DNA of 64,000 nucleotides. Source: Modicisalibacter xianhensis. GTDB lineage: Bacteria; Pseudomonadota; Gammaproteobacteria; Pseudomonadales; Halomonadaceae. The DNA lies in NCBI RefSeq assembly GCF_900113605.1, contig NZ_FOPY01000008.1, positions 124,001-188,000 on the forward strand. Reading direction: 5' to 3'. A model generated the notes under the pieces. That model searched no databases. It was not told the DNA's origin and saw only the letters and a list, made by a program, of their open reading frames with translations. This document shows, in pieces, positions 31,029 to 42,881 of this stretch (position 1 is the stretch's first letter; the number at the start of each line of letters is the position of its first letter). The translations under genes and the position numbers were made by a program.

Positions 31029-31994
31029 TCAACAGACGAATGGAGGCAACGGGGCCTTGGCCAGCCGAGCCTCGGTATCGCGCAATCGCTCGCGAACCTG
31101 AGCTAACGTATCGTCCTTTTCCGTGACGACTTCTTCCAAGCGCTCGCGCCTGAGCGTTTCCTCGCGCAACGTGTCCTTGGCCTGCTGCAGTTTCCACTCC
31201 GTCTCGCGATGCGAAGCCTGGGCCTCACTGAGCTCACGCCGTGCCTGCTGAAGGCGATGATCGACTTCGCCGACGCGCTTCTCCATGATCTCGAGGCGCT
31301 GGTTAAGCTGCTTTTCCGCTGCCTGGCGCTCTTGCCGCGCGTTATCGAGCAATGTCATGAGCCTGGCCTCGGCCGCTTCGTGGCGTTGCTCCTCCTGGCT
31401 CAACTGGGCACGAAACTCCTCATTCTTGCGCGATAGGGCAGCCTGATATTCAACCCCTTGGCGTTCATTCTCCGCCTGCAGGCGCTGCAACTGCTCCTCG
31501 CTCTGCTTGATCTGACGTTCATGCTGGGACTCACGCTGCGATGCACTTTCGCACTGGGCTTCCAGTCGGGCGATCCTCGCACTGTAATCCTCTAGGCGCT
31601 CCTGGGCCTGACGCAGCTGTTCACCAAGCACCGTTTCACGCTGTCGTGCGTCCTCGGCATCCCTGCGCGCCTGCTCGGATCGCGATTCGGCATCCTCAAC
31701 GCGTTTGTCGGCTTCCTGCCGGTAATGCGCCAACCCTTCGGCAGCACTTTCCTGGGCTTGTTGCCAGAGCGCTTGAACCAGGGTTTCTACCGACTCGGGA
31801 ATCGCCTGCAGGGGCGGCTGGTCACGATTCTCCTCACGCTGCAGACGCCATTCTCGAAAGTGCTCGTTGATCGTCGTGAAGCTACCCGTCCCAAGCACTT
31901 CCCGGATTTTCTGTACGCTGGGTGCCTCGCCTTGCTGGAGCAACCTGTCGATTGCTCGTCTTACGTCGTCGTATTGCACGCCGCTGCGCGCCAT
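31029..31994 (-). CDS. KfrA-like DNA-binding coiled-coil protein
   Basis: This 321-residue protein has an N-terminal KfrA-type winged-helix region (about residues 1-90, with APSVQKIREVLGTGSFTTINEHFREW). It is followed by a long Glu/Gln/Arg-rich coiled coil (about 100-310). Plasmid KfrA is a DNA-binding autorepressor with an alpha-helical tail. ATG at 31994 with GGAG upstream is chosen over a reading to 32045. It is divergent from a tyrosine recombinase; the gap contains repeats that could be its operators. Confidence 0.85.
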   Translation of the reverse strand: MARSGVQYDDVRRAIDRLLQQGEAPSVQKIREVLGTGSFTTINEHFREWRLQREENRDQPPLQAIPESVETLVQALWQQAQESAAEGLAHYRQEADKRVEDAESRSEQARRDAEDARQRETVLGEQLRQAQERLEDYSARIARLEAQCESASQRESQHERQIKQSEEQLQRLQAENERQGVEYQAALSRKNEEFRAQLSQEEQRHEAAEARLMTLLDNARQERQAAEKQLNQRLEIMEKRVGEVDHRLQQARRELSEAQASHRETEWKLQQAKDTLREETLRRERLEEVVTEKDDTLAQVRERLRDTEARLAKAPLPPFVC

Positions 31995-32097
31995 GTGGTT
32001 CTCCTCGGGACGGTTCCCGCCGCTATCAGCCTTAAATGCCGCCATTTTCGGCGATTACTGGAGCTTAGCCTAGCTTTGGCATAAATAGAATAATGCT

Positions 32098-32120
32098 TTT
32101 TACGTATTACAGTTTTACGT
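32098..32120. repeat. Direct repeats in the KfrA-like/recombinase intergenic region
   Basis: TTTTACGT occurs at 32098-32105 and again at 32113-32120, with 15 nt between repeat starts, in a short AT-rich stretch. The spacing is about one and a half helical turns. It may be an operator for the KfrA-like protein or a recombinase accessory site. Confidence 0.45.
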
Positions 32121-32152
32121 TACGATAACTAGGTAAATATTCATGATTACGC

Positions 32153-32173
32153 GGCTTATCTTGAATATAAGCC
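32153..32173. repeat. Inverted repeat upstream of the recombinase gene
   Basis: GGCTTAT (32153-32159) and ATAAGCC (32167-32173) are perfect 7-bp arms with a 7-nt spacer. This geometry resembles a tyrosine-recombinase core site (two arms around a 6-8 nt crossover) as well as an operator. It lies about 52 nt before the recombinase start. Confidence 0.5.
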
Positions 32174-32224
32174 TGTTACGCTCGACAATGAGCCCAGCCA
32201 TTTAACGAGTCGGAAAGAAGCGGG

Positions 32225-33430
32225 ATGAATCACCCACCAGACGCCAGCCCCCCGAACTTGGCGCTCTTTGAGCGAGAAGCGGCAGAAGAAGGGAAGGGCA
32301 GGCTGGCGTCGGCACGGCCACCCATGGCTCGGATACCGGCAACCAGCGATATCGAGGCTATTGGACAGTGGCTGACCGAATACGCCGCCAGCCCACAAAC
32401 GGTACGTGCCTATCGCAAGGAGGCAGAGCGCCTGATGCTGTGGCTGGGCGACAACGGGCTCGCTTTGCATGAGGTCGATCGCCGTAGACTGGAAGCGTAT
32501 GAAGCCTTTCTCGCCGACCCGTGCCCTGCAGAGCGCTGGATTGGTCCGCCCAAGCCGCGCTCTCATCCCCAATGGCGTCCTTTCCGGGGCCCGCTGTCCG
32601 CTGCCAGCCGGCGGCAGAGCCTGGTCATCCTTCAAGGCCTCTTTGCCTGGCTGAGCGAAGCAGGCTGGGTGAGTCACAATCCCTTTCGCCTGATGCGCGA
32701 CAAGCGGCGGCGCATGGACAACCGCCAGACACATATCGAGCGCTACCTGGAACGGCCGATGTGGGACTGGCTCTGGCAGTGGCTCAATCGCCCTCTAGAT
32801 GAAACGTGCAGCGAGCGGCAGCGACTAGCCTGGCACCGGCGACGCTTCGTGTTCGGCTTCGGTTATCTGCTGGCACCCCGTATCGCCGAAATGTCCCAAG
32901 CACGCATGAACGACTTTACGTATCGGGAAGGTCGATGGTGGTGGAATGTCATTGGCAAGGGCAGCAAGCAAGCCAGAATCCCCGTCCCGCCGGACATGCT
33001 TACGCTGCTCGAGGAGTGGCGGCAGGCACGGCAACTGAGCGCATTACCGGACCTGGATGATGAGCGCCCCTTGCTCTGCCGATTGAACGGCAGGACGGGC
33101 GTGACGGACAACCAATTGTATCGCCTGATCAAGGAAGCCTTTCGAGAGGCTTCGAGCGCTCTGGCCCATCAAGAAACCGGGCAAGGGGGCCCTGGGACCT
33201 CTGCCATGGCACGCCAACTGGCCAAGGCGTCCCCGCATTGGCTACGCCATACCGCCATCACCCACCAGGCTCAGGCTGGGGTCGAGTTACGCTACCTGGC
33301 CATGACTGCCCGTCACGAACGGCTGGATACCACAGCGCGCTATCTACATGCCGAAGCCGAAGAGTGGCAGCGCCAGGTGGCCGCGCACCGCCTCGAGATT
33401 CCAGCAGGGGGCGGACGCCGGCAAGAGTGA
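32225..33430 (+). CDS. Tyrosine-type site-specific recombinase (solitary integrase)
   Basis: This is 401 residues. The core-binding domain (about 43-160) is followed by the catalytic domain (about 190-385). The catalytic set is visible: Arg219 (APRIAE), Lys in GKGSK (about 245-248), His338 and Arg341 (HWLRH), His364 (ARHERLD) and nucleophile Tyr373 (RYLH). No tRNA, direct-repeat boundary, excisionase or cargo genes flank it. It is therefore not an obvious island integrase and may serve a resident chromosomal function with the divergent KfrA-like protein. Confidence 0.92.
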   Translation: MNHPPDASPPNLALFEREAAEEGKGRLASARPPMARIPATSDIEAIGQWLTEYAASPQTVRAYRKEAERLMLWLGDNGLALHEVDRRRLEAYEAFLADPCPAERWIGPPKPRSHPQWRPFRGPLSAASRRQSLVILQGLFAWLSEAGWVSHNPFRLMRDKRRRMDNRQTHIERYLERPMWDWLWQWLNRPLDETCSERQRLAWHRRRFVFGFGYLLAPRIAEMSQARMNDFTYREGRWWWNVIGKGSKQARIPVPPDMLTLLEEWRQARQLSALPDLDDERPLLCRLNGRTGVTDNQLYRLIKEAFREASSALAHQETGQGGPGTSAMARQLAKASPHWLRHTAITHQAQAGVELRYLAMTARHERLDTTARYLHAEAEEWQRQVAAHRLEIPAGGGRRQE

Positions 33431-33512
33431 ACCGTTATACTGAGGGAAACCCAAAGCTCGTCCGAGTTGCAGATGCTTGAAAGTGGCACTCGGCCAACCG
33501 CAAGGAGATTTC

Positions 33513-33929
33513 ATGAGCGCACAAGACGCCCAGGCCGAGCTGATCGAGGAGTTCAGCCTTTTCGATAACTGGATGGACCGTTATCAGTACATCATCGACA
33601 TGGGCAAGCAACTGCCGGCATTCCCCGAGGAACTGAAAACGCCGGAGACCAAGATTCAGGGCTGCCAGTCGAATGTATGGATGCACCATGAACGCCAGGG
33701 CGATAACGTGCATTTCCAGGCCACTTCCGACGCTGCCATCGTGTCGGGCCTGATTGCCGTACTGATGCGGATCTACAACGATCGAAGCCCCGAAGAAATC
33801 GTCGATACGCCACCAAGCTTTCTGGAAGAGCTGGGCCTGGACAAGCACCTATCACCGACACGCTCCAATGGCCTGCATGCCATGTTGCAGCGGATCTATA
33901 GCGTCGCCGAACAGGAAACCGCGGAGTAG
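33513..33929 (+). CDS. sufE: SufE-family sulfur acceptor
   Basis: This 138-residue protein accepts persulfide sulfur from a SufS/CsdA-type cysteine desulfurase. Catalytic Cys51 in GCQSNVW matches Cys51 of E. coli SufE. ATG at 33513 has AAGGAG upstream; the longer reading to 33477 is rejected. No sufS or csdA is adjacent, so the partner desulfurase must be elsewhere and CsdE is an alternative name. Confidence 0.93.
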   Translation: MSAQDAQAELIEEFSLFDNWMDRYQYIIDMGKQLPAFPEELKTPETKIQGCQSNVWMHHERQGDNVHFQATSDAAIVSGLIAVLMRIYNDRSPEEIVDTPPSFLEELGLDKHLSPTRSNGLHAMLQRIYSVAEQETAE

Positions 33930-33941
33930 CGATGGGGCAGG

Positions 33942-34214
33942 TCAGTGCGGACGATGCCGATCGCCCGCACTGTCGGCATGACAGCAGTATGGCGGCACAG
34001 GGTCGACACCGCCCGGATGCCAGGGATGGCACTTGAGGATACGTTTCAATGCCAGCCAGCCACCACGAGCCGGGCCATGCTCACGTACTGCCTCGACGGC
34101 ATAATGGGAACAGCTAGGCCAGAAGCGGCAACGGGGTCCCAGCAGGGGGCTGAGACCATACTGGTACAAGCGGACCAGGCCGATGAAAAGGGCGCTGACG
34201 ATACGCTTAAACAT
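33942..34214 (-). CDS. yidD: Membrane protein insertion efficiency factor YidD
   Basis: This is 90 residues. The YidD signature is complete: an amphipathic N-terminus with [14 protein letters not shown], then [11 protein letters not shown] and [19 protein letters not shown]. It assists YidC-dependent insertion. It normally sits in the rpmH-rnpA-yidC region, so placement after zur-hisI is unusual. ATG at 34214 follows the hisI stop by 3 nt. Confidence 0.92.
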
Positions 34215-34217
34215 CAC

Positions 34218-34661
34218 TCACCGCTTGCCGGAGTACAGTTCCGACGGAGAAATCATGGGTTCGCTGTCAACCGTGGCCTGCTCGGCATCCAGCGCGACAT
34301 AAAAACAACTGCGCCGCCCCGTGTGACATGCCGGACCGGTCTGATCGACGCTCAATAACAGCGTGTCGCCATCACAGTCCAGGCGCGCCTGTTTCAAGTG
34401 CTGCTCCTGGCCGGAGGATTCGCCCTTGCGCCACAGCTTACCTCGTGATCGCGACCAGTAGCATACACGCCCGGTATCCAGTGTCTCCTGCAACGATGCA
34501 CGGTTCATCCATGCCATCATCAGGACTTCACCGGTGTCATGCTGTTGAGCGATGGCAGGAATCAGGCCGCCTTCGTTCCAGCGTATGGAATCGAAAATTT
34601 CCATCAGCGGACGGCGCGTGCCGGACGAGGCATTTTCCAGGGACTTGAACAGTTCACTCAT
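34218..34661 (-). CDS. hisI: Phosphoribosyl-AMP cyclohydrolase (stand-alone HisI)
   Basis: This 147-residue enzyme carries out the third step of histidine synthesis and needs zinc and magnesium. CYWSRSRGKLWRKGESSG and the metal-binding DCDGD plus ACHTGRRSC motifs are intact. ATG at 34661 overlaps zur by 8 bp; ATG at 34604 would give a more typical length but lacks a ribosome-binding site. Co-transcription with zur suggests a zinc-linked copy. The other his genes are not in the window. Confidence 0.9.
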   Translation of the reverse strand: MSELFKSLENASSGTRRPLMEIFDSIRWNEGGLIPAIAQQHDTGEVLMMAWMNRASLQETLDTGRVCYWSRSRGKLWRKGESSGQEQHLKQARLDCDGDTLLLSVDQTGPACHTGRRSCFYVALDAEQATVDSEPMISPSELYSGKR

Positions 34662-35130
34662 GCTGGCTCTCGGTGAGGGAGGGTTCTCGGACGCGACCGC
34701 GGCAGGTATCGCAGCTACCCAACAACTCGATGGTCTGGCGGTCGACCCGGAAGCCCAGGGCCTGGGCTCGCTGGCTGAGTTGCGTGTTGACGTCGTCAAG
34801 GTGGAGTTCCTCGACCCGGCCACAATGACGACAGATGAGCAACTGGAAACCGTGCGTATGCTCAGGGCAGGGACAGGCCACATAGGCATTGAGAGACTCG
34901 ATGCGATGCACCAGGCCCTGCTCGATCAGGAAGTCGAGCGCGCGATAGACCGTTGGTGGTCTGGCCGAGGCATGTTCACTGGTCAAGTGATCGAGCAACT
35001 CGTAGGCCTTGAGCCCTCCGGGTGAGGATGCGATCAGCTCCAGGACCCGGCGGCGTATCGGGGTAAACCGCACACCACGTTGCTGGCATTGGCGCTCGGC
35101 CTGCTGTATCAGAAGTCGGATATCCGGCAT
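34654..35130 (-). CDS. zur: Zinc uptake regulator Zur (Fur family)
   Basis: This is 158 residues. The N-terminal winged helix (FTPIRRRVLELI, TVYRALDFLIEQGLV) is followed by a dimerisation domain. Cysteines in CRHCG and CDTC form the structural zinc site, and HTHGF belongs to the regulatory site. That pattern points to Zur rather than Fur. It heads zur-hisI-yidD. No clear Zur box was found upstream. Confidence 0.9.
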   Translation of the reverse strand: MPDIRLLIQQAERQCQQRGVRFTPIRRRVLELIASSPGGLKAYELLDHLTSEHASARPPTVYRALDFLIEQGLVHRIESLNAYVACPCPEHTHGFQLLICRHCGRVEELHLDDVNTQLSQRAQALGFRVDRQTIELLGSCDTCRGRVREPSLTESQHE

Positions 35131-35208: not shown

Positions 35209-36171
35209 CTAGGACACCGCCTGCAGCTCGCCGCGCCGGGCGAAATGATGCCTGGCGAATGCAACACGCGCCTCCACATTGGCGCCATCGGGCTGTTTCT
35301 CGATGAGGTCGAGGCGTGGCCGAAGCCCTTCGCCGTTGGTCATCTGGATCGCCAGCCCCGGTCGCGCATTCAACTCCAGCAGCATGGGTCCATGGTTCCG
35401 GTCAAGCACCATGTCAGTGCCCAGATAGCCCAGTCCGGTCATTTCGTAGCAACTGGCAGCCAACTTGAGCAGCACTTCCCAGTCTGGGATACGCAGACTG
35501 GCAAGCTCGTGCCCGGTGTCCGGATGATCCATGCGCGGTCGGTCGAACTGAACCCCACGCAACGCCGTACCGGTAGCGATGTCGAGCCCCACGCCAACCG
35601 CTCCCTGATGGAGGTTGGCCTTGCCATCCGAGGCGGCTGTGGACAGGCGCATCATGGCCATTACCGGGTATCCCTTGAACACGATGACCCGAATATCCGG
35701 CACGCCTTCATAGGTATACTCGGCAAGGAATTCGTCAAAGGAAATCAATGTCTCCACCAGAGCGATATCCGTGGCCCCGCCCAGCGAATAAAGCCCCGAC
35801 AGGATATTCGATACGTGACGCTCAAGGTCCTCACGCTGCAGCCGGTGGCCGCTGGGCTTGACGTACCCCTCGGCATCCTGGTGCTCGATGACCAGAATGC
35901 CCTTGCCGCCACTGCCCTTGGCCGGCTTGATGGCGAACCCGCCATGGCCAGTAACCATGTCCGCTATATGCTTGACGTCGAACTGGGTCGTCACGGTGCC
36001 GATAAGGTCCGGCGTCGTGATGCCGAAGCGCTTGGCCAACAGCTTGGTTTTCAGCTTGTCATCGACCAGCGGAAACAGGTGACGACTGTTGTAGCGGCTG
36101 ATGTAGCGGATGTTCCGCCGGTTCATGCCGATAATGCCCTTGGCTTTGAGTCGACCGGGACTGGCCCACAT
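35209..36171 (-). CDS. RimK-type ATP-grasp ligase (alpha-L-glutamate ligase-like)
   Basis: This 320-residue ATP-grasp enzyme belongs to the group annotated as alpha-L-glutamate ligase-like protein. Landmarks are LVDDKLKTKLLAKRFGI near residue 35, the nucleotide loop AIKPAKGSGGKGI near 80 and the metal-binding LLELNARPGL near 268. It should form an amide bond between an amino acid and a carboxylate, but the substrate is unknown. It is the last gene of a three-gene set with a transglutaminase-like membrane protein (4 nt gap) and a lipoprotein protease. Confidence 0.88.
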   Translation of the reverse strand: MWASPGRLKAKGIIGMNRRNIRYISRYNSRHLFPLVDDKLKTKLLAKRFGITTPDLIGTVTTQFDVKHIADMVTGHGGFAIKPAKGSGGKGILVIEHQDAEGYVKPSGHRLQREDLERHVSNILSGLYSLGGATDIALVETLISFDEFLAEYTYEGVPDIRVIVFKGYPVMAMMRLSTAASDGKANLHQGAVGVGLDIATGTALRGVQFDRPRMDHPDTGHELASLRIPDWEVLLKLAASCYEMTGLGYLGTDMVLDRNHGPMLLELNARPGLAIQMTNGEGLRPRLDLIEKQPDGANVEARVAFARHHFARRGELQAVS

Positions 36172-36175
36172 GATC

Positions 36176-37684
36176 TCAATCCTCCGTAATCGGCTTGAAA
36201 CGACGCAACTCGAGCAGACGATAGCCCGTGTAGTTGCCCAGCAGCAGGATGAAGGCCATCAGGATCAACTGAATGCCCAGGAAGTTGAACGTGACATGGC
36301 GTATCCAGGGGTTGTTCATCGCCAGATAGGCCAGGACCGCCGTCAACAGGCTGCCGCCGCCCTGGATCAGCACTTCCTTGGGACCTTCCTCTTCCCACAG
36401 GATCGACATGCGCTCAATGGTCCAGCTGAGAATGATCATCGGGAAGAAGGTAATGGTCAGGCCGGCATTGAGGCCCATCCGATAAGCCACGACGGAAAAC
36501 AGCGAAATGATCGCGATAACCGTGATTATCACTGCCGACACGCGCGCCACCAGCAGCAGATTGAGGTGCGACAGGTAGCTGCGTATCACCAGGCCAACCG
36601 CGACCACCAGCAGGAATCCGACCAGACCGGTAAACAGCGAGGTCTGAATGAAGGCCAGGGCGATCAAGACTGGCATGAACGTGCCTGATGTCTTGATCCC
36701 GACCAGCACACGCAGCAGCACGACGACCAGGGCGCCGATGGGAATCAGCAAGATGGTCTTGAACAGGGACTGCTCTTCGAGAGGCAGGCTGTGGATCGAG
36801 AAGTTGAGCAGCGTATTGTTCATCAACTGATTGCGCACGGCCACGGCCGCCGGCTCATTGTGCTTGAGCATCGAGAAGCTGACCCGCGAGTTGGTGCCGC
36901 CCTGAACCTCGAGCACGGGCTGTCCGCTGGCCTCCCACAGCAACAGGTTATCGGGCCGACCCTGCTCGCCGGTGGCCGGATTAAGGATTACCCAGTCGCC
37001 TTCGTCGTCGAAGACCTGTAGCCAGGAAGACAATGCCTGGCGGCGGCGACCGTCCTCGAGCATCAGCCCATCGACCTCACGCGCGGCGATACCGGCCTGA
37101 TTGAGCAGGCGCACGAGCAGGGAAGAGCGGTCGAAGCGATTCAACAGCAGGCGAGCATTTTCATCCTGGCGATCACCACTGAGATCCTGGATCAGCTCAC
37201 GGGCGAAGGTGAAAGCGTCCGCCGACTGCTGATGCGCCCGGCCGATGAGGCCCTCGGCGGCAGTGTCGAAAGGGCGTTCCCAAGTGATGTCCTGCGGTAT
37301 GGAGGGCGGCTGGACGGTCGGTGATTCGGCATCGGGAGCAACCAGCAACTGTACGGAATAGTAGAGCTGCTGGTTTCCGGTCGCTTCGCGAATGGCCCAC
37401 TGTGCTCGTCGACCGCTGTCATCATCCAGGAAGGACAAGCCATAACCGGAAGAGGCGGTATTTTCGGTCAGAACACGAAAATTCTCCTGATGCGAGGGAA
37501 GGGCCAGGTTGACCTTGACCGGCTCGCCATTGGCAAAGAAATTCACCTGCGCTTCGACTTCCCAGACTTCGCGCTGCTCACCCGGTGTCCAGGGCACGTC
37601 GAACTCGACGTGGCGATATACGGTCATGACGATACCGGTCAGCATCAGAACGCCGACCAGCAGGTAGAAGGGGATACGTGACAT
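36176..37684 (-). CDS. Inactive transglutaminase-like protein with C-terminal 7TM region
   Basis: This is 502 residues. One N-terminal membrane segment (about 4-22) is followed by a large periplasmic transglutaminase-like domain (about 30-310) and a C-terminal block of about seven membrane segments (about 325-495). This architecture is annotated as an inactive transglutaminase fused to 7TM. In the cassette it would link a periplasmic sensing or binding domain to the cytoplasmic ligase. It lies 14 nt after the protease gene. Confidence 0.87.
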   Translation of the reverse strand: MSRIPFYLLVGVLMLTGIVMTVYRHVEFDVPWTPGEQREVWEVEAQVNFFANGEPVKVNLALPSHQENFRVLTENTASSGYGLSFLDDDSGRRAQWAIREATGNQQLYYSVQLLVAPDAESPTVQPPSIPQDITWERPFDTAAEGLIGRAHQQSADAFTFARELIQDLSGDRQDENARLLLNRFDRSSLLVRLLNQAGIAAREVDGLMLEDGRRRQALSSWLQVFDDEGDWVILNPATGEQGRPDNLLLWEASGQPVLEVQGGTNSRVSFSMLKHNEPAAVAVRNQLMNNTLLNFSIHSLPLEEQSLFKTILLIPIGALVVVLLRVLVGIKTSGTFMPVLIALAFIQTSLFTGLVGFLLVVAVGLVIRSYLSHLNLLLVARVSAVIITVIAIISLFSVVAYRMGLNAGLTITFFPMIILSWTIERMSILWEEEGPKEVLIQGGGSLLTAVLAYLAMNNPWIRHVTFNFLGIQLILMAFILLLGNYTGYRLLELRRFKPITED

Positions 37685-37698
37685 GAATCGAAAGGTCC

Positions 37699-38550
37699 TT
37701 ACTCGTCTTCGTCGTCGTCGATACGGTCGCCAGCTTCATCCTCGGCCGCCATCTCGGCGGGCTCACCCCCGGGATATTCCGGACGCTCGTGGAGATAGGA
37801 CTGGGCCACGTCGATCAGTGCGATATCCATCATGAATCGCCGACCGAGAAGGACGGGATAATCCAGGTGGGTACGGTCATTGAGCGTGAATTCGACGTTC
37901 TGCTTGATCGGTCCCAGTTCCATCAGCAAGCTGATGACCGGCCGGCTCTCCTCACCGGAGGCCTGGATGATTCGGACGCGCCGCACGACCTCGGCTTCAA
38001 CCCACTTGTCGCGTGCGCCATCGATAGCCACGGCATCTTCATCGAGTGCCAGCTTGAAGCGCACCCAGTCTTCGCCTTCACGTTCGAACTCGGTAATCTC
38101 GCGGGCCGACAGGGATGCCGTGTTGGCGCCGGAGTCGATGCGTGCCTTGAGGTAGGTACCGATATTGGGAAACCCGACCCACTCGGTTCGCCCCAGCAAC
38201 GTCTTGTTCTCCAGAGCATCGATATCGCTGCTGGGGCATTCAGGCATCACGACGTTGGAATCGCTTTGGAGCGTCTCGACATCGGCACGCAACGCCCTGA
38301 CCAGACTGCCAATCTCACGGACATCGGCACCGACCCGCTCGAGCCGATCCTGCTGTCCCTGCCGGCTGGCCTCCTGGACCTGGCAAGCGTTGGCCAAGGT
38401 CGATTCGAGGTCTCCGATTCGATCATCGAAACTTGCTCTGGTCAGTAAATGATCCAGCCGGTCTTTTTCGTCGGATTGAGGCTGTAGGGCACAGCCACCC
38501 AAGAGCAACAGACCGGCAGAGGCAGCCAGCAGCTCGCGTCGAATCGGCAT
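37699..38550 (-). CDS. Lipoprotein retropepsin-like protease (RimB/ATP-dependent zinc protease family)
   Basis: This is 283 residues. A signal peptide with lipobox LLGGC puts the acylated Cys at 20. A short coiled coil (about 25-100) precedes a retropepsin-like domain (about 115-260) with Asp139 in the IDSGANTAS motif, the D-S/T-G signature of aspartic proteases. Databases name this family an ATP-dependent zinc protease, which the motif does not support. ATG at 38550 is preceded by AAGGA; an ATG at 38556 is too close to it. It is the first gene of the ligase cassette. Confidence 0.87.
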   Translation of the reverse strand: MPIRRELLAASAGLLLLGGCALQPQSDEKDRLDHLLTRASFDDRIGDLESTLANACQVQEASRQGQQDRLERVGADVREIGSLVRALRADVETLQSDSNVVMPECPSSDIDALENKTLLGRTEWVGFPNIGTYLKARIDSGANTASLSAREITEFEREGEDWVRFKLALDEDAVAIDGARDKWVEAEVVRRVRIIQASGEESRPVISLLMELGPIKQNVEFTLNDRTHLDYPVLLGRRFMMDIALIDVAQSYLHERPEYPGGEPAEMAAEDEAGDRIDDDEDE

Positions 38551-38661: not shown

Positions 38662-41600
38662 TCAGGCGGAAGAGTTCACCGCAGCGGCATCCCGGACGGC
38701 ATTGTGATCGCGCGCCAGCAGGATGTAGAACGCGGGCAGGACGAACAAGGTCAGCAGCGTGCCGATACCCAGGCCGGCGGCGATCGTCAGCCCGATATCA
38801 AAGCGGCTGACTGCCCCTGCACCAGTGGCAAACAGCAGCGGGACCATGGCCACGATCAGCGCCACCGAGGTCATGATGATCGGACGCAGGCGGATAGCGG
38901 CCGCCTCGATCACGGCATCGCGCTTGTTGAGGCCACGATCGTGCTGCAGCAGGTTGGCAAACTCGACGATCAGGATACCGTTCTTGGCAACCACACCGAT
39001 CAGGGTGATCAACCCGACCTGGGTATAGATGTTCACCGTAGAGATGCCAAGCGTGATGAACACCATGGCCCCCGCTACCGACATGGGCACCGATACCAGG
39101 ATGATGATTGGGTCGCGCCAGCTTTCGAACTGGGCAGCCAATACCAGATAGATGACGATCAGCGACAGGAAGAATGTCAGTACCAAGGCACTGCCTTGCT
39201 CCATGAGCTGACGGGACGATCCCTGGTAGTCGACGGAGTAGCTGGCCGGCAGGGTGTCGGCAGCCGCCTGGTTGAGCCAGGTAAGTGCATCGCCGAGCGC
39301 CACCCCCGGGCGCGGCACCCCTTCGAGAATCAGTGCATTGAGCTGCTGGAACTGGGTCCGCTTGGAAGGCTCGACGCTGCGCTCGAAGCTGACCAGGCTG
39401 CTTAGTGGTACCTGTTCGCCGGAATCGGCCTCGATGTAATAGTTGTCGATCATCGAGGCATCGAGGCGGTACTGCTGGTCGACCTGAGGTATCACCTTGT
39501 AACTGCGCCCATCCATGCTGAAGCGGTTGACGAAGCCTTCACCGAGCATGGTCGACAGCGCCTGACCCACATCGGCCATGGTCAACCCCAGATCGGCGAC
39601 GCGATCACGATCGACTCGAATGTCGGTGACTGGCCGATCCAGGTCGATGGACTTGCGCAGAAACGCGAAGTTGCCACTGGCCATGGCCTTGCCTAACAAT
39701 TCGTCTGCAGCGGCATTCAGTTCCTCGAAACTGTTGCCGGTGGTCAACACGAACTGGACGGGCAGGCCGCCACTGGAACCGGGCAGGGAAGGGCGCGGGA
39801 AGGCGGCGGTCTGCAGCCCCGTCACCTGGGAAAGCGCTGCCTGTACATTGGGCAGGACGGTCATCTGGGAAATGTCCCGCTCGCTCCAGGGCAGCATCTT
39901 GAACCCACCGAATACGGTATCGGCGCTCATGCCGCCCAAGATCATGAAGGTCTCATTGTAGCCTTCGACCTGCTCGACATTACTCTGGATAGCGTTGGAG
40001 TAGCGCTTGAGATAATCGAGCGTGGCGGTCTGCGGAGCCGTGCCCTGGAAGAAGATGATGCCTTGGTCTTCCGTCGGCGCCAGTTCGTTCTGGCTGGTCA
40101 CGAACATGAAGTAGATCGACGCCAGCACGACAACCGCAAACACCACCGGTACGGAGACCGTCTGCACGACACCCGACAGGGCCGAGCGGTAGCCATTGGC
40201 AAGACGGTTGAAGCTGTTCTCCACCAGGCGCTCGAAGCGTGAAGCATTGCCATGGGGTTTCAACACCTTGCCCGACAGCATGGGCGAGAGTGTCAGGGCA
40301 ATGATGCCCGACACGACCACGGCCCCGGCCAGGGTAAAGGCGAATTCGGTGAACAAGGAGCCGACCAGGCCACCCATGAAGCCAATCGGCGCATAGACGG
40401 CGACCAGCGTCGTGGTCATGGCGATGATTGGCGTTGCCATCTCACGGGCACCGTTGAGCGCTGCCTCGAAGCGGCTTTCGCCTTCCTCGATGTGCCGGTG
40501 AACGTTTTCGACAATGATGATGGCATCGTCGACCACAAGACCGATGGCGAGCACCATGGACAAGAGCGTCAACAGGTTCAGCGAGAACCCCAGCATGAGC
40601 ATGACGAAGGCACCGCCGATCAGTGACAGCGGCACGGCAACGGCCGGCACCAGGGCAGCGCGAAACGACCCAAGGGTCAGGAAGATGACGACCAGCACGA
40701 TGATCAGGGCTTCGAGCAGCGTCTTAATGACCTCGTTGATGGAATCCTCGATGAATTCGGAGGCATCGTAAGGCAAGACGACGTTCAGGCCGGCCGGCAA
40801 CTGGTTGCGGATTTCCGGCAATGTCTCACGCACGGCGCGAGCCACGTCCAGGGGATTGGCCCCGGGAGCCTGCTCGATCGCCATGAAGCTGGCCGGGGTA
40901 CCCTTGTACCAGGCAGTGCTGTCGTAGCTTTCCGCGCCCAGGTCGGTTCGGGCGATGTCACGCAGCCGAACCAAGTTGCCATCGTCATTACGGACCACCA
41001 TGTCGGCGAACTGCTCGGGATCGCTGACGTCGGTATTGGTGGTCAGGTTGATGGCCACGTATTCACTACGCGTCTTGCCGACACCGGCCTGGTAATTGTT
41101 GTTCTGCAGGACAGCGACGACGTCCTGCGGCGTGACGTTGAGTGCTGCCATGCGCTGAGGGTCTAGCCAGACCCGCATGGCGAAACTCTGGCCATAGATA
41201 CGCGCCTTGGCCACCCCCGGCAGGGCCTGCAGCTTGGGCTGGACGACACGTGTCAGGTAATCGGTGATCTGGGGGACCGGCATCTGCTCGGAATAGAAGG
41301 CCAGATACATCAAGGCGGTCGAATCGCCAGTACTCGACTCGATCACAGGGCTTTCTGCGGCTTCGGGCAGCACGCTACGCTGGCTCGCCACCTTGGCCTG
41401 GATTTCGGCGAGCGCAGCATTGGCATCGTAGTTGAGCTCCATGTGGACTTCGATGGTCGACGAGCCCTGAATGCTTTCCGAAGTAATGAAATCGATGCCG
41501 TTGGCCTCGGCAATCGCCTGCTGCAGCGGAGTCGTGACAAACCCTTGGACCAGCTCCGAGCTGGCCCCGGGGTAGGCAGTGCTTACGGTAATGACGGTAC

Positions 41601-41724
41601 TTTCGAGCTGAGGATACTGGCGGATCTCCATATCCATGGCCGAGCGCAGGCCCATGAGCAAAATCAATAGGCTGACGACCGTCGCCAGTACCGGGCGGCG
41701 CACGAAAATATCGGTGAATTTCAT
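38662..41724 (-). CDS. RND efflux transporter permease (HAE1 class)
   Basis: This 1020-residue pump has twelve membrane segments and two large periplasmic loops. The proton-relay aspartates are present in GLVVDDAIIIVENV (about residue 400). It resembles MexF/MdtB-like HAE1 transporters that export drugs or small molecules. The start overlaps the adaptor stop by one base. No TolC/OprM homologue is encoded nearby, so an outer-membrane channel must come from elsewhere. Confidence 0.94.
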   Translation of the reverse strand: MKFTDIFVRRPVLATVVSLLILLMGLRSAMDMEIRQYPQLESTVITVSTAYPGASSELVQGFVTTPLQQAIAEANGIDFITSESIQGSSTIEVHMELNYDANAALAEIQAKVASQRSVLPEAAESPVIESSTGDSTALMYLAFYSEQMPVPQITDYLTRVVQPKLQALPGVAKARIYGQSFAMRVWLDPQRMAALNVTPQDVVAVLQNNNYQAGVGKTRSEYVAINLTTNTDVSDPEQFADMVVRNDDGNLVRLRDIARTDLGAESYDSTAWYKGTPASFMAIEQAPGANPLDVARAVRETLPEIRNQLPAGLNVVLPYDASEFIEDSINEVIKTLLEALIIVLVVIFLTLGSFRAALVPAVAVPLSLIGGAFVMLMLGFSLNLLTLLSMVLAIGLVVDDAIIIVENVHRHIEEGESRFEAALNGAREMATPIIAMTTTLVAVYAPIGFMGGLVGSLFTEFAFTLAGAVVVSGIIALTLSPMLSGKVLKPHGNASRFERLVENSFNRLANGYRSALSGVVQTVSVPVVFAVVVLASIYFMFVTSQNELAPTEDQGIIFFQGTAPQTATLDYLKRYSNAIQSNVEQVEGYNETFMILGGMSADTVFGGFKMLPWSERDISQMTVLPNVQAALSQVTGLQTAAFPRPSLPGSSGGLPVQFVLTTGNSFEELNAAADELLGKAMASGNFAFLRKSIDLDRPVTDIRVDRDRVADLGLTMADVGQALSTMLGEGFVNRFSMDGRSYKVIPQVDQQYRLDASMIDNYYIEADSGEQVPLSSLVSFERSVEPSKRTQFQQLNALILEGVPRPGVALGDALTWLNQAAADTLPASYSVDYQGSSRQLMEQGSALVLTFFLSLIVIYLVLAAQFESWRDPIIILVSVPMSVAGAMVFITLGISTVNIYTQVGLITLIGVVAKNGILIVEFANLLQHDRGLNKRDAVIEAAAIRLRPIIMTSVALIVAMVPLLFATGAGAVSRFDIGLTIAAGLGIGTLLTLFVLPAFYILLARDHNAVRDAAAVNSSA

Positions 41725-42881
41725 CAGCCTGCTGCCTCCTCGCCAGGAGTCGTCGCGCTGTCATCGTCAGCCCGCTCTTGAGAATCGTCACTGGTCGTCT
41801 CGCCATCACCGTTCGCAAGTGACACCGGCTGGCCGTCGCGCAGGCGCAACTGACCAACGGCCACGACACGATCGCCAGCCTGCAACCCCTCGACGATTTC
41901 GACCTGATCGCCGCGAGTCCGGCCGGTCGTCACCTGGGTTCGCTTGGCAGTCAGCTGATCCTGATCATTCGGGGTGACCAGAAACACATAATCGCCATAC
42001 GTGTTGAAGGCCAGGGCAGTGCGGGGCAGGGTAAGCACGCGCTCAGCCTCGGACGCCAGCGTGCGGACGTCGGCAAACATGCCGGGGCGCAGTTTCTGGT
42101 CAGGATTGACCAACTTGGCCCGGACATCCAGCGTTCGACTGCTCTCGTCGACGGCCGGTGCAACGGCCTCGATCTCGCCGGCAAACACTTCCTCAGGAAA
42201 CGCGGCAACCCGGACTTCGACGTTGCGGCCCGCCTGGACGCTGCCTAGCTGCTTCTCGGGAACGCTGTAATCGACGTAGATTGGATCGAGCATATTGAGG
42301 TCGACGATAGGTGTCCCGACGGCGATATATTCCCCGAAATCGACCTGCCGCAGCCCAACGACACCATCGAACGGAGCACGAATCGTTTTCTTGTCGAGCT
42401 GGGCACGCTGCTGAGCGACATCGGCGCGTGCTGCCTGGTAGTTGGCACGGGCCTCGTCATACTGGGATTGGGAAATGGCGTTGCGCGGCAACAGATCCGA
42501 GTAGCGACGGAACGTCTCGTTGGTCAGCCTGGCTTGTGCCTCGAGAGCCGCGAGCGCGGCCTGATCGACGCTATCGTCAAGCCTGACGAGAATGTCCCCC
42601 TTGCTGACACGCTGACCGGATTCGAAGTCGATCTCGCTGACGACACCGGCCACTTCGTTGGAAACCGCCACGCCGTTGATGGCACGCATTGAGCCAACCG
42701 ATTTCAGCTCAGCCCGCCAGCTGTCCGTCGTGAGTTGCACCGTCTCGACCGGCACAGGGGGCTGCGGCTGTGACTGTTGCGCCGCCATTTCCTGCATCTT
42801 GAGGTATTTCCAGCCAAAGATGCCGCCCAGCACCAGAGCTAGCAGGATCAGTATCACGATCAAGCGGACAACAATTTTCAT
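41724..42881 (-). CDS. RND efflux periplasmic adaptor (membrane fusion protein)
   Basis: This 385-residue protein has an N-terminal membrane anchor (about 6-24), a lipoyl/hairpin region (about 70-180), a beta-barrel and a membrane-proximal domain. The C-terminus is a short acidic, Ser/Thr/Glu-rich tail. It connects the permease to an outer-membrane channel. The family length is normal. It is the first gene of the pump operon, with a dyad element far upstream (43011-43052). Confidence 0.92.
   Translation of the reverse strand: MKIVVRLIVILILLALVLGGIFGWKYLKMQEMAAQQSQPQPPVPVETVQLTTDSWRAELKSVGSMRAINGVAVSNEVAGVVSEIDFESGQRVSKGDILVRLDDSVDQAALAALEAQARLTNETFRRYSDLLPRNAISQSQYDEARANYQAARADVAQQRAQLDKKTIRAPFDGVVGLRQVDFGEYIAVGTPIVDLNMLDPIYVDYSVPEKQLGSVQAGRNVEVRVAAFPEEVFAGEIEAVAPAVDESSRTLDVRAKLVNPDQKLRPGMFADVRTLASEAERVLTLPRTALAFNTYGDYVFLVTPNDQDQLTAKRTQVTTGRTRGDQVEIVEGLQAGDRVVAVGQLRLRDGQPVSLANGDGETTSDDSQERADDDSATTPGEEAAG

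Follow-up and report, generated by a model that had tools for sequence, protein, structure and literature searches.

Neighbourhoods that join an ATP-grasp enzyme, an inactive transglutaminase with seven transmembrane helices (7TM) and a retropepsin were reportedly first predicted in work on amidoligase operons by Iyer et al. in 2009. The closest described system is the rlo operon of Pseudomonas aeruginosa, which serves in cell-envelope stress and in which, according to Lormand et al. (2025, mBio; PMC12239564), RloA (PA14_41690), RloB (PA14_41710) and RloC (PA14_41730) influence growth at low salt, biofilm formation and resistance to wall antibiotics. That account describes RloA as a retropepsin that forms dimers, carries a signal peptide and in vitro cuts poly-glutamate and sequences rich in glutamate, and it gives crystal structures for RloA and RloA2, some of them from P. 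fluorescens; a cysteine pair of the periplasmic orthologues is reported as conserved, not as required. Cells without all three RloA proteases did not grow in salt-free medium, a hypo-osmotic defect that sucrose partially alleviated, and deletion of rloB or rloC restored the low-salt growth of the triple mutant. Mutation of the residues of RloA that contact glutamate impaired both polyglutamate cleavage and complementation (PMC12239564). Other phenotypes, in cell shape and in sensitivity to wall antibiotics, were linked by the authors to peptidoglycan, free polyglutamate was suggested as a possible product, and the discussion of the same paper places the rlo orthologues of Vibrio cholerae under VxrB. 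Two other papers bear on these genes: Shewanella vesiculosa released 1.9-fold more vesicles when a gene encoding a seven-helix membrane protein with an inactive transglutaminase was disrupted (PMC12096838), and a flagellar mutant had PA1766, PA1767 and PA1768 among its suppressor hits (PMC7314104). The window, by which we mean the whole 64,000-nucleotide stretch of Modicisalibacter xianhensis DNA analysed here, carries at positions 35209–38550 three genes that are this halophile's rlo operon (rloA-rloB-rloC), of a divergent kind in which the protease is probably tethered.

The genes are adjacent on the minus strand in the A-B-C order of the published operon: rloA at 37699–38550 (283 amino acids), rloB at 36176–37684 (502 amino acids) and rloC at 35209–36171 (320 amino acids, with Met16 as a second possible start), with gaps of 14 nucleotides between rloA and rloB and 4 nucleotides between rloB and rloC. 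These coordinates confirm the close spacing given in a sequence-only reading of the window, and Pfam and NCBIfam matches uphold the three families that it had assigned. Its view of the cassette as an under-described system is out of date, the rlo operon having been published in 2025 (Lormand et al., PMC12239564); the part for which no description was found, in the open-licence literature searched, is the predicted tethered form of RloA.

RloA, the predicted lipoprotein retropepsin, matched PF05618 at 125.8 bits (Pfam) and has the retropepsin active site D[ST]GA within a protease domain at about residues 115–257. Its catalytic residue is Asp139, as had been read from IDSGANTAS (IDSG begins at 138), and the lipobox noticed earlier is also there, LLGGC ending at Cys20; by pattern and reading, the export signal is of the lipoprotein type. 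No cysteine follows the catalytic Asp, hence the disulfide pair is absent. In the structure model (mean predicted local distance difference test, pLDDT, 87.6) residues 38–96 form a single unbroken helix about 9 nm long (59 × 0.15), with block-mean pLDDT values of 93–95 across residues 41–90. The best solved-structure matches of the retropepsin domain were 9g59 (RloA2), 9g58 (RloA) and 2pma, and counting along the 9g58 alignment placed the polyglutamate-contact residues of the published RloA (K46, R92, R114 and R137) at R137, R190, R203 and R226 of the window protein. RloA fell under the NCBIfam cut-offs for RloA3 (112 against 210 bits), RloA2 (106 against 250) and RloA (88 against 280).

An even sample of the class comprised 274 genomes, 57 of which, the window's included, had a PF14402 match; the other genomes yielded 57 regions, and a profile built for this analysis confirmed RloB in 56 of these, one weak match not being confirmed. 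The three genes stood in A-B-C order on one strand at 43 of the 56 RloB loci, and two more were cut by a contig end. Seen in evenly drawn genomes, the arrangement is thus not due to chance, and the co-occurrence on which the sequence-only reading had staked its three-gene system is real.

The window's group was taken as 88 loci, of which eight, the window's among them, came from the even sample and 80 were added by similarity; the latter were the best 80 of 585, biased to the window's group, and were labelled by membership in this set, ahead of the 136-row tree described below. It includes halomonads, Vibrio, Aeromonas, Shewanella, Oceanospirillum and Methylophaga. A lipobox was found in 87 of the 88 group RloA proteins against 0 of 38 other operonic RloA, and the cysteine pair in 0 of 88 against 36 of 38. 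In the even class sample alone, a lipobox without the pair was seen in eight RloA, the window's being one of them; of the soluble RloA in this sample, 36 had the pair and two lacked it. From the lipid-bearing cysteine to the catalytic Asp there were 100–148 residues (median 117), and the equivalents of window R137, R190, R203 and R226 were Lys or Arg in 86, 87, 87 and 86 of the 88. In Escherichia coli the residue after the lipid-bearing cysteine guides outer-membrane sorting, and Asp there would not fit; in the 87 rows this residue was A, V, T, S, I, P or N and never Asp, which fits sorting to the outer membrane. RloA is accordingly placed here, as a prediction from its sequence, among outer-membrane lipoproteins on a helical stalk; the stalk may be a coiled coil that stands in the outer membrane and reaches the peptidoglycan. 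No description of a tethered RloA was found in the open-licence literature, the words "lipoprotein", "lipobox" and "coiled" are absent from the text of PMC12239564, and a search of that literature for periplasmic lipoprotein retropepsins gave one paper, on a Rickettsia autotransporter peptidase.

The division by RloA architecture was matched by RloB. A tree of every RloB frame of 350 amino acids or more (136 rows, midpoint roots only), built without RloA, placed the 88 together on the same side of a single branch (Shimodaira–Hasegawa-like approximate likelihood ratio test, SH-aLRT, 100), and a 101-row tree from which the odd-numbered loci of L093–L161 were left out agreed on the group. In a tree of the RloA protease domain only (75 rows, every third locus of L093–L172 kept), the 35 included group rows lay on one side of a branch with support of 97/98. 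RloB positions 213–216 were R, R, R and Q in 88, 88, 86 and 88 of the 88 group rows, compared with 3, 13, 3 and 0 of the 37 other RloA-bearing rows. Two further candidate features of the group were dropped: a longer flap, seen by eye solely in Pseudomonas-like sequences, and the docking of an acidic tail of RloA on RRRQ, such a tail being present in halomonads and absent from the Vibrio rows shown.

RloB of the window, an inner-membrane protein by its Pfam matches (PF14400, 190.9 bits; PF14402, 369.6 bits) and structure model (mean pLDDT 78.4; predicted template modelling score, pTM, 0.57), has an N-terminal helix, a transglutaminase fold at about residues 38–278 that is predicted to be periplasmic, and a 7TM domain at about 302–485. 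Residues 38–278 matched a putative cysteine protease, 3isr, with a Z of 13.3 over 215 residues. The protein contains zero cysteines, and no alignment column occupied by the window protein had cysteine in more than 8 of the 135 aligned RloB. The transglutaminase-like domain with about seven helices proposed earlier therefore stands as to fold and helices, with the correction that the catalytic residues are absent and that the domain, as judged from the alignment, is of the inactive kind. A fold search gave no convincing relative of the 7TM domain: 8ahx_A (RNF) reached Z 6.9 over 129 residues and many AcrB-type chains Z 5–6.6, values within the range typical of a common arrangement. The nearest named RloB was that of Modicisalibacter luteus (95% identity), in a listing that may omit records very near the window genome. 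RloC, the RimK-related ATP-grasp enzyme, matched PF14397 (312.9 bits), RimK PF08443 (35.7 bits) and, in NCBIfam, the "alpha-L-glutamate ligase-like protein" family TIGR02291 (448 bits, cut-off 314). Its residues aligned to K100, K141, R189, D248, E260 and N262 of the RimK of the same genome, which we take to be ATP and metal ligands, were invariant in 128 of 128 RloC (fragments dropped).

Compared with P. aeruginosa, the window's operon has the same gene order, core domain architectures, retropepsin fold and protease export signal, and the four basic poly-glutamate-contact residues. It differs in its RloA, for which a lipid anchor and a stalk of some 100 residues are predicted and which has no disulfide cysteines, and in its RloB, which bears the RRRQ motif and is 36% identical to that of a locus, L036, which is Pseudomonas-like by eye. 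Sampled Vibrio loci, V. cholerae not being among them, had the lipoprotein form and fell in the window's RloB group. The RimB-RimK pair, which acts in the glutamylation of ribosomal protein S6, also combines a retropepsin with an ATP-grasp ligase and has common catalytic residues, so the kinship with RimB and RimK suggested by the sequence-only reading is borne out by homology of both the protease and the ligase; unlike window RloA with its lipobox signal, RimB-RimK has neither an export signal nor a membrane protein.

Secreted retropepsins were further compared with the distribution of RloB. The window genome has three PF05618 genes, namely rloA, a solo gene (C19:331834) whose product has the cysteine pair and an N-terminus that resembles a signal, and rimB at C19:255041, which adjoins rimK on a contig other than the window's. 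RloB was present in 42 of 61 genomes of the window's family; operonic and other copies were separated by hand according to how far they lay from RloB, and the count leaves out the fifth match of one genome (G301), which has internal stops. A non-operonic RloA-like gene occurred in 31 of the 42 genomes with RloB and in one of the 19 without it (Fisher p 5e-7, uncorrected for kinship). That one gene (genome G300) is divergent and has no cysteine pair. RimB was found in 42 of 42 genomes with RloB and 17 of 19 without, and one genome of the window's genus that is without RloB (G310) has retained RimB alone. PF05618 occurred without PF14402 in 75 genomes of the class sample; 38 of the 75 were examined by one protein each, these being the best-scoring among the matches listed. 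Neither a signal peptide nor a cysteine pair was seen in 35 of the 38, 30 of these 35 lying beside RimK; the other three (L302, L310 and L324) were RimB-RimK fused frames with N-termini that are signal-free by eye, suggesting fused protease-ligase proteins. The signal-peptide heuristic recovered 120 of 127 RloA-matching frames, and one of the seven misses was RimB-like. Among the genomes examined, secreted retropepsins are nearly confined to those bearing RloB. This near-exclusive link suggests a common job, directed at either the RloB-RloC product or RloB itself.

On balance, we consider it probable that the rlo operon encodes a pathway in which a glutamate-rich product of RloC and RloB is trimmed by RloA, with a stalked outer-membrane RloA in the window's group. 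In the cytoplasm, RloC would use ATP to attach glutamates to an acceptor. RloB would carry the resulting product or present it on the periplasmic side, with a dead transglutaminase fold that serves for binding rather than cutting. RloA would trim the product in the periplasm, and untrimmed product may damage the envelope. In the window's group, RloA on its stalk of about 9 nm would do its trimming at a fixed distance beneath the outer membrane, possibly close to the peptidoglycan, and the soluble secreted RloA elsewhere in the window genome would be a likely backup. The tethered form, if real, limits the substrate to what the stalk can reach from the outer membrane. The periplasm-to-cytoplasm pathway proposed by the sequence-only reading is only partly supported: that ligase, membrane protein and periplasmic protease form one pathway agrees with the published Pseudomonas genetics (PMC12239564). 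A more specific version, in which the stalked RloA polices glutamate modification of a wall or envelope polymer at a set depth, with the RRRQ of RloB as its match, is tentative and rather doubtful; if true, it would be a new ruler-type quality control of periplasmic polyglutamylation.

Several points weigh against the trimming pathway. The lipid anchor and membrane sorting of RloA are predictions. The 36% identity of RloB to L036, whose RloA resembles that of P. fluorescens by eye, and its 369 bits against a cut-off of 900 for the NCBIfam RloB family (NF052267) mean that the functional assignment spans a long branch. One member of the window's group, from Tolumonas (L167), has an RloA without a lipobox. 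Two loci of the main group (L055 in genome G120 and L069 in G167) have RloB-RloC without an adjacent rloA, and the PF05618 of these genomes is only RimB-like. A divergent RloB-RloC group (L047, L052, L075 and L092) is also without adjacent RloA, and two of its genomes, G071 and G197, gave zero PF05618 matches; a protease-free relative of the rlo system thus seems to exist. At L071 the RloA, sole PF05618 protein of genome G179, has DPGV for D[ST]GA, and the catalytic motif of RloA at L168 is DDEA, so that both are possibly dead proteases. The lack of an intact secreted RloA at several loci speaks against a strict rule.

An unlikely alternative is that RloB is itself the target: RloA would cut the part of RloB that lies in the periplasm or hold it in check, RloC would be the cytoplasmic partner of RloB, no glutamate product would be exported, and unrestrained RloB would be toxic. 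Suppression of RloA loss by loss of rloB or rloC also fits this (PMC12239564), as do the invariant charged residues of the 7TM domain and the conserved C-terminal tail of RloB, and the change of RloA architecture that goes with a change in RloB (RRRQ at 213–216). Window RloB even offers a single three-Glu run, at 431–433, yet three is also its longest run of Glu, divergent RloB-RloC pairs persist in genomes without PF05618, and the impairment of both polyglutamate cleavage and complementation in glutamate-contact mutants of RloA also speaks against this reading (PMC12239564). Less probable still is a role of RloC in making free poly-glutamate, an osmolyte or reserve that RloB would move to the periplasm and RloA would recycle. 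The authors named this possibility, and a hypo-osmotic defect partly relieved by sucrose is in keeping with it; the shape and wall-antibiotic phenotypes, linked to peptidoglycan, speak against it (PMC12239564), and the absence of a convincing transporter match for the 7TM model (best Z 6.9) counts lightly against it too. A second RimK/RimB ribosome-modification system, for which the homology of protease and ligase to RimB and RimK speaks, is very improbable given the export signal of RloA, the RimB-RimK already encoded on another contig, and a rimB deletion without genetic interaction with RloA mutants in Pseudomonas (PMC12239564).

Variants of the operon were seen in single genomes. One 853-amino-acid open frame (L072:2931–5489) matched both the RloB and RloC profiles and probably encodes the membrane protein fused to the ATP-grasp enzyme. 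In two genomes, the RloB-adjacent RloA match was split in two within one open frame (G328:C109:42149–42643 and G294:C1:1664685–1665155), which suggests an insertion within the protease domain.

A search for the operon's promoter gave no sigma-70-like site, and a terminator was dropped, two terminator-like sites being found against 2.1 in shuffles. Genes for an RND efflux permease and adaptor (38662–42881) lie on the same strand and end 111 nucleotides before rloA. They were rejected as part of the system and regarded as local, such genes standing upstream of rloA only at L093, L096 and L098 and downstream of rloC at L037, among the loci searched, which cover no more than about 3.5 kb on the upstream side of rloA. 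After the operon, positions 33477–35130 hold genes for a Zur-like regulator, hisI and yidD, with sufE on the opposite strand, a block that recurs in halomonad-family loci; zur, found downstream in 33 of these, all among the 80 loci chosen by similarity, and otherwise only at L081, was set aside as local synteny. Further on, at 31029–33430, a minus-strand frame encoding a protein with long coiled-coil-like stretches adjoins another frame on the plus strand; by reading, we take them to resemble KfrA and a tyrosine recombinase, respectively.

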